64,000 nt of DNA from Hypericum androsaemum (lineage: Eukaryota > Streptophyta > Magnoliopsida > Malpighiales > Hypericaceae). Shown here in pieces: positions 51,135-64,000 of this stretch (the stretch's first letter is position 1; each line of letters starts with the position of its first letter). The notes beneath the pieces are model-generated. The model was not told the DNA's origin and did not search any database. It saw only the letters and a list, made by a program, of their open reading frames with translations. The position numbers were made by a program, and so were the translations under genes. The DNA lies in assembly GCA_963995505.1 (NCBI GenBank), contig OZ023182.1, positions 2,557,001 through 2,621,000 on the forward strand, given 5' to 3'.

Positions 51135-53360
51135 ATGAAAATGCCTTGTAATATGTTCCCCATCCTTGTACTGTTGATCGCCATTGATATGGCGGCATCA
51201 ACCGAATTAGAAGGGACATTGACTTTAACGTGTCCTATACCACCTCAACTCATAAATAAGCTTCATGCTGATACTTCGGTAATAGAAACAGCCGCCACCG
51301 ACTTCGGGAACGTTGTCCATTTCCCTCCAAAAGCCGTCCTCTACCCATCAACCGTACAAGACATCCAAGCGCTAATAGCATCTTCCTTCTATTGTCCACG
51401 TCCTTTTGCTGTATCCGCCAGGGGACACGGCCACTCGGTGGAAGGACAAGCCATGGCCCCTGAGGGAATCGTCGTGGACATGCAAGAATACAAAAGAAAC
51501 CGAAGAGGGTCCGGAGTTTTGATCTCCGACGACCTTTTGTACGCTGATGTAGGGGGTGACCTCCTCTGGATTGATGTGTTGAATGGGACGTTGGAGAAAG
51601 GTGTCATGCCGGCAATTCCGTGGACCAATTATTTGAGACTTACAGTCGGCGGGACGTTGTCCAACGCCGGAATCGGTGGTGAGAGTTTCCGTCTTGGCCC
51701 CCAGGTTAGCAATGTCTACGAGATGGATGTTATCACTGGTAAGTACATCTTAATCTTTAAAGCTAATTTGGAATATATACGTTATTTGTCTCGGGTTTGA
51801 ATGTACGTTCCAACACGAGTATTTTCCGACGTATTTTGTCCTTTCTTTTGAGATATTTGCCAAAAAAAAGAGTTACAAGTTGTTGATATGAATAATATAA
51901 TCAAATTAATTAAGCTTTTCTTAACAAATCTGGAGTATTATATCTGGCCATTTAGAACGCAAAGTTGTCAAATAATTGCTGGAAGAATTTTGCCACAATT
52001 TATAAATATTCTATTCAGCTCGAACTTTGATTAGTCGATCGAGTGGGTATCTAGAAATAACAATATCAGAAATTAACATTATGCTAATTAATGTGCAGGA
52101 AAAGGGGAGATGGTGACCTGCTCACCTAGCAACAATCCCGAGCTGTTTAATGCTGTTTTGGGAGGCTTGGGCCAATTCGGTGTTATTACAAAGGCTAGGA
52201 TCCCTCTTCAGCCGGCAAAACCCCAGGTACCTATTGAATCTCTACGAACCTAAATTTGAATTAATTAGTTTTGACCTTCTTTAATTATACATTTTGTTCT
52301 TACTTGCACGATTATTTTAGGTTCGATGGTTACAGGCGCTTTACACCGATTTCGAACAATTAACCAGAGACCATGAGATCATAAATGGTAGAAGCCAAAG
52401 CGACGCCGTGGATCATTTCGCAACCTACATTTTTTTCGACAATGGCACCCCAAATGAATGGGCGACTTCTTTCTTCCCACCCGAGGACCTTCCCAAAATC
52501 TTGTCCTTATTGAAGCAGTATGGTGTTATCTACTGTCTAGAAATAGTAGATCCCTATGACGAAAGTACTGATCTCATTGCAAATAAGGTAATTACGTACT
52601 AATTGCCAGACTGTCTTTCTTCTCGGGATATCGTTATCTGTTTTATAAGTAGAATTTGTTACACGTCTATGATTTTAACCATAGTCACTCTAAATAGCAG
52701 ATCTTTGACAACTTGTTTTTCTTGTCATGCGCAGCGATTGGAGAATTTGATGCACGAGTTAAGTCCGATACCTGAATTGGTTCACCAAATAGATGTTGCT
52801 TATGTGGACTTTCTTAACAGAACCAGTCAACTCCAAGTGCTAAAAAATCAGTCGCATCCATGGATTTCCCTCTTTGTTCCTAAATCTCGCATGTATGACT
52901 TTAACTTGGGCGTCATCAGAGACATTCTTCTCAAAGGAAGAATCACCTTTGGTCCTACCGCTGCTTACTTTTTAAACAAAAACAAGTGCGTTACAAATTC
53001 CATCACCTCATCGCATTCATCTTGTGTAGCTTGGTAATTTATATTAACTTTTGGGTCAAAATTAAATGCAGATTTCATGAGCAAATGTCAGTGGTTACAC
53101 CAGATGAAGATGTTTTCTACACGGTGACGCTTTTGCAAACAAGCTCGGTTGACAATTGGAAACTTTATTATGATCAAATTGATGCCATAACACAGTTTTG
53201 TGACAACAGCGGTATCAAATATAAGAGATATCTCCACAGGTATACTAGAAAGGATGATTGGATTCAACATTTTGGCTCGAAATGGGGTATGTTTCAGAGG
53301 AGAAAGCAGCAATTTGATCCTAAGCACATTTTATCATCTGGACAGAAAATCTTCAATTAA
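51135..53360 (+). CDS. CKX copy D: intact cytokinin dehydrogenase-like flavoprotein, catalytic acids replaced
   Basis: Five exons, 51135-51738, 52099-52226, 52321-52587, 52735-52985 and 53072-53360, with GT-AG introns in phases 1, 0, 0, 2, give 512 residues. Residues 1-22 look like a secretory signal. The N-terminal FAD domain has ARGHGHS (95-101), where His100 should carry the covalent flavin, [12 protein letters not shown] and [11 protein letters not shown] (169-179). The C-terminal substrate domain has [34 protein letters not shown] and [11 protein letters not shown], and ends GQKIFN. CKX enzymes oxidise the isoprenoid side chain of cytokinins. The two acids that bind the cytokinin N6 group in maize CKX1 are not here: Asp169 aligns with Asn165 (PWTNYL) and Glu288 with Ala278 (DHFATY). 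Fold and flavin attachment are therefore expected, but normal activity is doubtful. Several N-glycosylation sequons are present (for example NGT at 150 and 285). Confidence 0.93.
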
Positions 53361-54017
53361 GAGTTGACATCAGTACTGGTCGTTAAAATTGCGAGTTCCA
53401 ATGATTCCAAAAATTCATTGTCCAATATTGATTTTGTGTGCTGTTAATGGTTTTTCAATCCATTTATCTTTTATTTTAAATGTCGCGTTGAAAAATAAAT
53501 GTCCATCGTTTCTTGTGATGTAACAGTATTTTGAGTTTTGCAATAAACAATGTTTCCTGCAATATTTGTATTTCAGTTGGGTACAATGTTCATTTTCAAT
53601 ATAGTTATGGTCTTTATCGTGGAACATCAACATTCATTTTTTCCCTCTGGAAAACATATTTCGGTATCTAATACAATTAAATTCCTATAGTTGGAAGAAA
53701 TAGGCGCTAAACTTTAGATCACAAGTTGGAAACAATAAATAAATAAATTTATGTGCATCTCTTCCTGGTTAATTCGTGATGGACGAAATATCCAACGCTT
53801 TTATGTCCTTCTAATTTAACAAAATAAAGAATTCTAGTACTTTCAAATCTGTCTGAAAAAGAGGTGGAAGTACAGGAATATAATTTAGGGCAAGATTTCA
53901 GTTCACTCTGCAAATCTCGAAACAAAATCATAAAATATTTAATAAATCGACTGATTTAAATCTAAATCGAATAAATTTTTTGAACGATGACTATTCTCCT
54001 AATACATAAAGTTAATA

Positions 54018-54189
54018 GATAATGGGCTATGACTCAGGATCAAATACCCAAGCTCAAATGCCTCCACCGGAACGTGGCCTTTTTGTCTTGTCCGTTCTTA
54101 CAATGGGGTTTGGTTATTGGGCCATAAGCAAGTTCCGAGTCCGGACCTCCCAAGAAATGACATCCAATTTCCAAATCCAATGTCCTCTC
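54018..54189. repeat. Segment shared with the NAC 3' flank (left half)
   Basis: ATGGGCTATGACTCAGGATC and CCTCCACCGGAACG parallel 9421-9480. The counterpart of the following part lies at 57840-57935, so the LTR element was inserted in this duplicated segment. Confidence 0.55.
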
Positions 54190-61882: not shown

Positions 61883-61888
61883 TATAAA
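61883..61888 (+). promoter_or_regulatory. TATA box of CKX copy F
   Basis: TATAAA in GGGAGCTCTATAAATTAACG is 100 bp upstream of the start codon. Blocks upstream (GTTGACTTTAAAATGTCAAA, ACACATGGTCAG, GAACAATTTATTCTGG) are shared with the other CKX promoters. Confidence 0.75.
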
Positions 61889-61982
61889 TTAACGTGTACC
61901 AATAGCCTAAAGAAGTGCCCTGGTAGCATCAAGAACTCCCTCCCCTCTCCTCTTTTCAGTTTGTTCTCTTTCCCGTAGAAGA

Positions 61983-64000
61983 ATGAAAATACCTTGTAAT
62001 ATAATAGCTTGTACCCTCCTCATACTATCGACCGCCATTGATATAGTGGTGTCAACCGACGTAGAAGGGACATTGGCTTTAACGTGTCCTATACCAACCC
62101 AACTCATAGATAAGCTTCATTCTGAACCTTCTGTAATAGAAACAGCCGCCACCGACTATGGGAACGTTGTCCATTTCCCTTCATCCGCCGTCCTCTACCC
62201 ATCAACCTTACAAGACATCCAAACCCTAATAGCATCTTCCTTCTATTGTCCACGTCCTTTCGCTGTATCCGCCAGGGGGAACGCCCACTCGGTGGAAGGA
62301 CAGGCCATGGCCCCTGAAGGGGTCGTCGTGGACATGCAAGAATACAAACGAAACCGAAATGGGTCCGGAGTCTCGGTCTCCGACGACCTTTTGTACGCTG
62401 ATGTAGGGGGTGACCTCTTCTGGATTGATGTGTTGAAAGGAACGTTGGAGAAAGGTGTCATGCCGGCAATTCCATGGACCAATTATTTGGAACTTACAGT
62501 CGGCGGGACGTTGTCCAACGCCGGAATCGGTGGCGAGAGTTTCCGTCTTGGCCCCCAGGTCAGCAATGTCTACGAGATGGATGTCATCACTGGTAAGTAC
62601 ATCTTTATCTTTAAAGCTAATTTGGAATATATACCAATAAATTTGTTTTAATTCGAGTCATTAATAATACATCGGTGTCAAATATTTATTGTAAGTGTTT
62701 TGCCGTCATTCAAATGTCATACCCTGATCGAAACTAAATTAATTAATTATGTGAGTGTTTGGATACATTATGCTAATTAATGTGCAGGAAAAGGGGAGAT
62801 GGTGACCTGCTCAGCCAACAACAATCCTGAGCTGTTTAATGCTGTTTTGGGAGGTTTGGGCCAGTTCGGTGTTATCACCAGGGTTAGGATCCCTCTTCAG
62901 CCAGCAAAACCCCGGGTACCTACTTAATCATCACCAACCTAAATTTTAATTAATTAATTAACTAATTAATTTTGACCTTTCTTAATTATACATTTTGTAC
63001 TTGCTTGCACGATTATTTTAGGTCCGATGGTTGCGAGCGCTTTACACCGATTTCGATCAATTCACCAGAGACCATGATATCATAAATGGTAGAAGCCAAA
63101 GCGATGCCATCGATCATTTGGGAAACTATATCCTTTTCGACAATGGCACCCCAAATTCATGGGCAACTTCCTTCTTCCCTCCCGATGACCTTCCCAGAAT
63201 CTTGTCCTTATTGAAGGAGTATGGTGTGATCTACTGTCTAGAAATAGTAGATCCCTATGACAAAAGCACGGAGCTCATTGCACAGAAGGTAATTACGTAC
63301 TAATTGTTACAGTTTTTTTTCTCGGGATATCGTCTTTTTTATAAGTAGAATTTGTTACACCCTAAGTTCGAATCCCTTGTCCACCCTTTTACCATTCGAG
63401 CTAGAGCTACCAGATGTTTGACAAGTTGTTTTTCTTGTCATGGGCAGAGATTGGAAAATTTGATGCACGAGTTAAGTCCGATACCTGAATTGGTTCACCA
63501 AATAGATGTCGCTTATGTTGACTTTCTTAATAGAAGCAGTCGGCTCCAAGTGCTTAAAAATCAGTCGCATCCATGGCTTTGTCTCTTGGTTCCTAAATCT
63601 CGCATGTCTGACTTCAACTTGGGCGTCATCAGAGACATTCTTCTCAAAGGAAACATCACCTTTGGTGCTACCGTTGTTTACCTTTTCAACAAAAACAAGT
63701 GCGTTACAAATTCCATCACCTCATCGCATTATCTTGTAGAGCTTGGTCAGTTATACTAATTTTTGGGTGAAATTTAAATGCAGATTTGATCAGCAAATGT
63801 CAGTAGTTACACCAGATGAAGATGTATTCTACGGGGTATTACTTTTGCAAACAAGCTCGGTTGAAAATTGGGAGCTTTATTATGCTCAAAATGATGCTAT
63901 AACACAATTTTGTGATAATAGCGATATCAAATTTAAGACGTATCTTCACAAATATTCTAGAAAGAATGATTGGATTCACCATTTTGGCTCGAAATGGGGC
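61983..64000 (+). CDS. CKX copy F: cytokinin dehydrogenase-like flavoprotein, 3' end outside window
   Basis: Exons are 61983-62592, 62788-62915, 63022-63288, 63448-63698 and 63784 onward. All splice sites and phases match copy D and no stop or frameshift is seen. The window ends in exon 5 at SKWG, about 23 codons short of the copy D end. Signal peptide: [20 protein letters not shown]. The flavin motif reads ARGNAHS (96-103): His102 is kept but the preceding Gly of the GHS motif is Ala101. As in D, the Asp169 and Glu288 equivalents are lost (Asn167 in PWTNYL, Gly280 in DHLGNY). Closest to relic E by its N terminus. Expression and stability are unknown; the open frame over nearly 500 codons argues that it is, or was until recently, under constraint. 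Confidence 0.92.

Follow-up and report, generated by a model that had tools for sequence, protein, structure and literature searches.

Cytokinin oxidase/dehydrogenase (CKX) is a central hormone-degrading enzyme. In maize CKX1, whose residue numbers are used throughout, Asp169 and Glu288 form a pair that polarises the cytokinin side-chain nitrogen ahead of hydride transfer, as set out in the accessible part of PMC9340367. Section 9 of PMC8234997 describes the Asp as essential for catalysis and reports that its replacement raises relative reactivity with oxygen. Tyr170 and Tyr491 are named together with Asp169 as possible helpers of flavinylation in the accessible part of PMC4574047. A tandem array of CKX-like genes in Hypericum androsaemum has lost both acids. 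The array lies in a window of 64,000 nucleotides, the whole stretch analysed here (C3:2557001-2621000, where C3 is contig OZ023182.1 of the 385-Mb assembly GCA_963995505.1). Two further tandem clusters of the same Asp169-less lineage occur elsewhere in the genome.

Maize CKX1 (PDB 1w1o, 2qkn and others) is colinear with array copy D over D residues 39-512 (E ~1e-118), and D is also colinear with other solved CKX chains. The polarising pair of maize CKX1 is absent from the array. PHPWLN, a motif named for CKX in the available sections of PMC8234997, reads SHPWIS in D and SHPWLC in copy F.

The plant CKX3-like group is represented by proteins of Ricinus, Hevea, Erythroxylum and Jatropha as the best listed, together with C11a from the same genome. 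It shares with the array the domains FAD_binding_4 and Cytokin-bind, an N-terminus that is signal-like when judged by eye, the GHS or AHS histidine, HFG, Tyr170 and Tyr491, and a locus near a JUNGBRUNNEN1 (JUB1)-type NAC gene. The array differs from this group in lacking Asp169 and Glu288 and in having G289, V378, N399, P432 and W438 replaced. Homologue comparisons rest on the best 120 of 2165 homologues found, and array products are 45-54% identical to these 120 listed proteins. One of them, P0046 of Linum perenne, is changed at positions that are also changed in the array (Glu288 to Ala, V378 to Gly, L429 to Ile) but, unlike the array, keeps Asp169 and Asn399. Its contig equals in length the one that carries two JUB1-type NACs.

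A CKX-like protein without the catalytic Asp has been described from Nostoc. NoCKX1 has Leu at this site and is inactive, according to the accessible parts of PMC4574047 and PMC8234997. The same sources describe it as also lacking the GHS histidine and flavin adenine dinucleotide (FAD), whereas His105, Tyr170 and Tyr491 are kept in the Hypericum lineage, which is multi-copy and constrained. No plant CKX with a lost Asp was found in searches of one open-access library for Asp-less, inactive or new-function CKX proteins.

The CKX copies of the window are as follows.

17463..17665, plus strand: copy A, an exon 1 fragment.
20849..23407, plus strand: copy B, a pseudogene interrupted in exon 4 by an in-frame stop and in exon 5 by a deletion of 4 nt; Gly169, Gly288.
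32337..35611, plus strand: copy C, a pseudogene with an unalignable exon 3 start, exon 4 split by ~1.1 kb and a broken frame in exon 5; Gly169, Gly288.
51135..53360, plus strand: copy D, an intact gene of 512 residues with five exons (51135-51738, 52099-52226, 52321-52587, 52735-52985, 53072-53360), GT-AG introns and no internal stop; Asn169, Ala288, Thr378, Ser399, Ala429.
58102..58250, plus strand: an isolated CKX exon 5 relic upstream of E.
59365..59973, plus strand: copy E, a pseudogene whose exon 1 has a 1-nt deletion; exons 2-4 (and so position 288, in exon 3) are absent and TATAAATTAA is changed; Gly169.
61983..64000, plus strand: copy F, exons 61983-62592, 62788-62915, 63022-63288, 63448-63698 and 63784-64000, the last continuing beyond the window; Asn169, Gly288, Ser378, Cys399, Val429.

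C, D and F retain the element TATAAATTAA 5' of the start; in A, B and E it is altered. An additional broken CKX copy is found downstream of F in C3. The initial annotation, made from the window alone, had described D as fully open over 512 codons and F as open to the edge, and both gene structures bear this out. When read from the whole genome, F (locus L009) is complete, with 514 residues and GT-AG introns. F was used whole in the between-cluster codon models and in the test of conserved columns below; it was cut at the window edge in the within-array codon models, the D-F difference counts, the neutral simulation and the residue scoring. D contains Pfam domains FAD_binding_4 (PF01565, 62 bits) and Cytokin-bind (PF09265, 253.5 bits).

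The residues at 169 and 288 are those given in the initial annotation. Its statement that every copy lacks both acids holds for B, C, D and F; E, without exons 2-4, and A, as a fragment, are not scorable for the pair. None of the 120 listed homologues lacks Asp169, and only P0046 lacks Glu288, so the loss of these residues is more than chance. The alignment is unambiguous at both sites. WTNYL stands opposite WTDYL, and against close homologues the 288 segment is gapless up to the DNGTPN anchor. Acidic residues brought in from elsewhere to compensate at 169 or 288 were considered and rejected, as the alignment contains none, and the loss of both acids stands.

D and F also lack G289, V378, N399, L/I429, P432 and W438, all of them conserved in 95% or more of the listed homologues; C is not scorable at 378 and 438. 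The spacer before the tryptophan of the WT(D) motif is 13 residues in the five scored copies versus 12 in 100 of 101 scorable listed homologues, the other 19 of the 120 not fitting the pattern. A search with the substrate domain of F returned nine proteins, all with Cytokin-bind, and the six new ones among them keep Asp169 and Glu288.

The flavin side of the proteins is largely preserved. D and F carry FAD_binding_4 and retain 68 and 67, respectively, of 71 near-invariant FAD-domain columns, as expected for the vanillyl-alcohol-oxidase type. They keep W397 along with His105, Tyr170, L458, Tyr491 and L492, and they end in the C-terminal HFG motif (HFGSKW). The FAD histidine, an 11-residue motif (letters not shown) and GQFGVIT had been listed as conserved, which is correct for D and F, except that F reads AHS and not GHS. 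The flavin-anchoring His105 itself is present in B, C, D, E and F, with AHS in F and E. AHS was rejected as a strong signal; the same Gly is also missing in 17 of the 120 listed homologues.

Losses can be placed by domain using 110 columns that are at least 97% conserved in the homologues, of which the FAD domain holds 71 and the substrate domain 39. D breaks 12 of the 110, with three on the FAD side and nine on the substrate side (p=0.004). For complete F the counts are four and nine (p=0.01), and C9d, a gene of the C9 cluster described below, gives the same counts as F. The Asp-bearing control C11a breaks four and two (p=1). Thresholds of 90% and 95% give the same direction of domain difference in the Asp-less genes. 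A listed homologue compared with the rest breaks 1.0 columns on average and six at most (n=120). Losses thus fall mainly on substrate-domain columns in D, F and C9d and not in C11a.

A Pfam scan of the assembly yielded 67 exon-level CKX matches. Beyond the window array, these comprise the C9 cluster (four copies), the C19 cluster (five copies), two copies on C11 and seven other CKX loci. All 13 scorable copies of the three clusters (C3 five, C9 three, C19 five) have Gly or Asn in place of Asp169, and the residue is Gly in all scorable C9 and C19 copies. Glu288 is kept in 4/4 copies of C9 and 5/5 of C19 and is lost in 4/4 scorable copies of the window array. The remaining loci have Asp169 in 8/8 and Glu288 in 7/7 scorable cases; broken L021 is not scorable. 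With these whole-genome data, Asp loss is a property of the lineage and not of a single array.

Seven intact Asp169-less genes are present on three contigs: D, F, C9d, C19a, C19c, C19d and C19e. The last five are open from start to stop and encode 518-520 residues. His105, Tyr170, Tyr491, Leu458 and Leu492 are retained in D, F, C9d, C19a, C19c and C19e. C19c and C19d encode the same protein and are 99.8% identical in DNA; one of them could be an assembly duplicate. C19b and C9b are broken by frameshifts, C9a has a stop at the first splice junction, and C9c was found in part only. In the C19 cluster (L015-L019), where four of five copies are intact, WTDYL reads SLAGYL or SLTGYL, so that Trp167 is gone too, and AWGNGHS replaces ARGNGHS at the FAD histidine.

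The nearest relative, C11a (L020), keeps Asp169, Glu288, G289, V378, N399 and P432. The aligned start codon of this gene is not an ATG, but the third codon is. The HFG motif reads HYG in C11a, as reported for barley HvCKX9 in the accessible part of PMC4574047.

Selection was measured with GY94-type codon models (F3x4, own scripts, one likelihood start) as the ratio of nonsynonymous to synonymous rates (dN/dS); dS is given approximately, as a neutral length per site. The ratio between clusters is 0.31-0.35, with dS ~0.65-0.77 (p<1e-15). In a tree of D, F, C9d, C19e and C11a, the Asp-less lineage (0.38) does not differ from the C11a branch (0.43). A ratio of 1.08 belongs to the short stem leading to D, F and C9d, and with free ratios twice the log-likelihood difference (2dlnL) gains 7.5 for six parameters. 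D versus F gives 0.46-0.48. Within the array, the F branch is clearly constrained (0.39, p=4e-4). Dead B (0.54, p=0.02) and dead C (0.62, p=0.03) show constraint too, and therefore probably died late. In neutral simulations of 600 runs each, a stop-free branch has a 0.5% chance for D and likewise for F. Exon 1 of D (51135-53360) resembles that of B (20849-23407) far more than the later exons do, which suggests exchange between tandem copies and makes branch values inside the array rough.

The substrate pocket is under weaker constraint. A list of nine pocket positions was used, cut from 18 candidate positions after the homologue residue comparison had been seen; it contains Val378, Trp397, Asn399, Ile429 and Leu458, which we take to be pocket residues. 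Across D, F, B and C, pocket codons with three codons on either side have dN/dS of 1.17 versus 0.48 elsewhere (2dlnL 24.4), and none of 60 random position sets reached 1.17. All 18 candidate positions give 0.99 versus 0.47. Positions named in papers alone give 1.13 versus 0.50, with a weak result at radius 1 (p=0.04). Across clusters, the values are 0.74 and 0.35. D and F differ in amino acid more often at the pocket than elsewhere: at radius 3, 17 of 52 codons differ, a count reached by 3 of 488 shifted sets, and at radius 0, 19 of 488 shifted sets are as high. The fold and the FAD site are constrained, and the pocket, over all copies, is freer or diversifying.

A tree of the 120 homologues, maize CKX1 and copies B, C, D and F places the longest inner branch, 0.73 changes per column, at the stem of the array clade. 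In the full tree of the lineage, the nine Asp-less rows form one clade (support 100/98) with C11a outside. Codon 169 is GGT in B, C, E, C9d and the aligned C19 genes and AAT, two steps from GGT, in D and F. Because the Asn and Gly codons are two steps apart, the window alone cannot time the Asp loss relative to the array duplications; the other clusters point to an older Gly. GAT probably changed to GGT with C11a as the nearest relative, and Glu288 was lost only in the C3 array. The earlier proposal that the change predates the duplications has to be divided by residue: Asp169 is also missing in C9 and C19, whereas Glu288 survives there.

One origin for the Asp loss is the favoured view, on support that comes from pocket columns: the changes at 289, 378, 399 and 432 are common to all three clusters. 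Two or three parallel losses after the clusters split are rather unlikely. Asp to Gly needs one nucleotide step, and when 78 pocket columns are removed, C11a moves inside the lineage beside C19, a placement with weak support (61/77) that also counts against the proposal made below; a single Asp-less clade is then not rejected (approximately unbiased test, p=0.40). Parallel loss would nevertheless require the same GGT codon and the changes at the four pocket-side positions to recur. The full tree sets C11a outside, and removing the pocket columns shifts the root without altering the unrooted order of the four groups.

By homology, these are CKX-family proteins. D and F should not be filed as cytokinin dehydrogenases, because both the Asp and the Glu that define this activity are missing. 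The initial annotation had offered a flavoprotein lineage with a new substrate, a cytokinin-binding non-enzyme or a slowly decaying family. A flavoprotein lineage without the Asp-Glu pair, with fold-defining and FAD-site residues kept, is supported. It is about an even call that these are CKX-derived, secreted FAD proteins that have given up the cytokinin mechanism and probably oxidise another substrate. In such a scheme, Asp169 became Gly (Asn in D and F) while G289, V378, N399 and P432 changed in all three clusters, and the window array lost Glu288 as a further step. In the products, the N-terminus stays signal-like, and the FAD-binding domain is retained together with the histidine that anchors flavin and the tyrosines named as possible helpers of flavinylation. 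Polarisation of the cytokinin N6 by Asp and Glu would no longer be possible in these proteins; D and F lack both acids, and ordinary CKX catalysis is therefore unlikely. FAD would still be bound, and another, perhaps bulkier, substrate would be oxidised in a pocket that is more neutral and still changing between copies. Charge is lost and most side chains become shorter through the changes at 169, 288, 378, 399 and 429, so the pocket is perhaps wider. Oxygen may be a better electron acceptor than in CKX, and the loss of Asp might weaken the covalent flavin link. Somewhat more doubtful is the broader proposal of a new secreted flavoenzyme family that arose from CKX by the Asp-to-Gly change and a rebuilt pocket, with three tandem clusters still diversifying at the pocket in the manner of oxidases of specialised metabolism or defence.

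Several further results weigh against an oxidase of another substrate. The C19 cluster shows a less marked domain difference, with 5/71 FAD-domain versus 7/39 substrate-domain columns broken in C19a (p=0.11) and 4/71 versus 7/39 in C19e (p=0.05). With the 55 columns invariant in the 120 homologues, it is not significant in D (p=0.33) or F (p=0.38); D, F, C19a and C19e lie at p=0.30-0.38, and C9d at p=0.02. The D branch is weakly below neutrality (0.59, p=0.07), and dead B and C are as constrained as D and F, so that present-day constraint on these two is read mostly from the past. Near-invariant R237, F262 and N474 are changed in D alone, and P528 is changed in both D and F. These deviations, together with the many dead copies (A, B, C, E, the next C3 copy downstream, C9a, C9b and C19b, with C9c partial), would suit a slowly decaying family. 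Decay is disfavoured, however, and seems very improbable given the between-cluster constraint, the seven intact genes and the concentration of losses in the substrate domain of D, F and C9d but not C11a. Pocket values are also uneven across branches (D 2.17, F 0.35, B 1.24, C 1.09). Tested against 1, D gives p=0.04 and F p=0.07 towards constraint, among eight tests counting conserved sites, and F departs from the freer pattern of D, B and C. Moreover, an unused pocket would closely resemble a diversifying one.

This last point bears on a non-enzyme that binds cytokinin or carries flavin, kept for apoplastic binding or scavenging or for its fold, with a pocket that is not used catalytically. 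The catalytic Asp is gone throughout the lineage and N399, V378 and G289 are changed, while other conserved columns remain constrained, and an unused pocket would give the near-neutral dN/dS that the window copies show there. We nevertheless regard such a protein as unlikely. The changing residues are those that would hold cytokinin, the older-cluster pocket is below neutral at 0.74, F's pocket value is low, and the pocket changes are partly shared (T378, C/S399). Less likely again is a protein that is still a cytokinin dehydrogenase, either slow or with another mode of substrate activation, in which water could replace Asp. Retention of Glu288 throughout C9 and C19 would fit such an enzyme, as would W397 in D, F and the aligned C19 genes and L458 and L492 in all seven aligned genes. 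Against it stand the Asp of every listed homologue, reported as essential in the available sections of PMC8234997, and the inactive Leu-bearing Nostoc protein, though this also lacks FAD; in D and F, Glu288 is gone as well. An oxidase of another substrate is therefore ranked first, a binding protein next and slow CKX activity third.

A complete gene of another family stands beside the array.

7355..9171, plus strand: a complete JUNGBRUNNEN1-type NAC gene with three exons.

This gene is 59-65% identical to its best Malpighiales matches. The top-scoring match is a Litchi protein with a repeated NAC domain, and the other best matches are from Malpighiales. NAC and CKX matches have adjoining locus tags in Jatropha (JCGZ_22642/22643) and in Populus tomentosa (POTOM_028313/028312), so the array seems to occupy a NAC-linked CKX3-like locus common to Malpighiales.

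Other features of the window lie between the CKX copies. An insertion between D and E (54182-57790) contains long minus-strand reading frames at 54486-56528 and 56762-57538, the latter gag-like by eye. The frames lie between near-identical direct repeats at 54275-54450 and 57613-57788 (94%). Pieces resembling a Copia-type retroelement polyprotein, again by eye, are present inside the array at 39090-44281 on the plus strand. Tandem repeats with units of 58 and 32 bp occupy 49020-49686, ~1.5-2 kb upstream of D. Transfer RNA and Rfam scans of the window each returned no matches.

Domain-based annotation is expected to label all of these copies cytokinin dehydrogenases, which would mislead gene-family counts or breeding. 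One genome also provides a comparison set, with the intact site of C11a and clusters at the stages of Asp lost and then Asp and Glu lost. If the proposed function is true, a maintained and multiplied Asp-less lineage would show that the CKX fold can take on another function.

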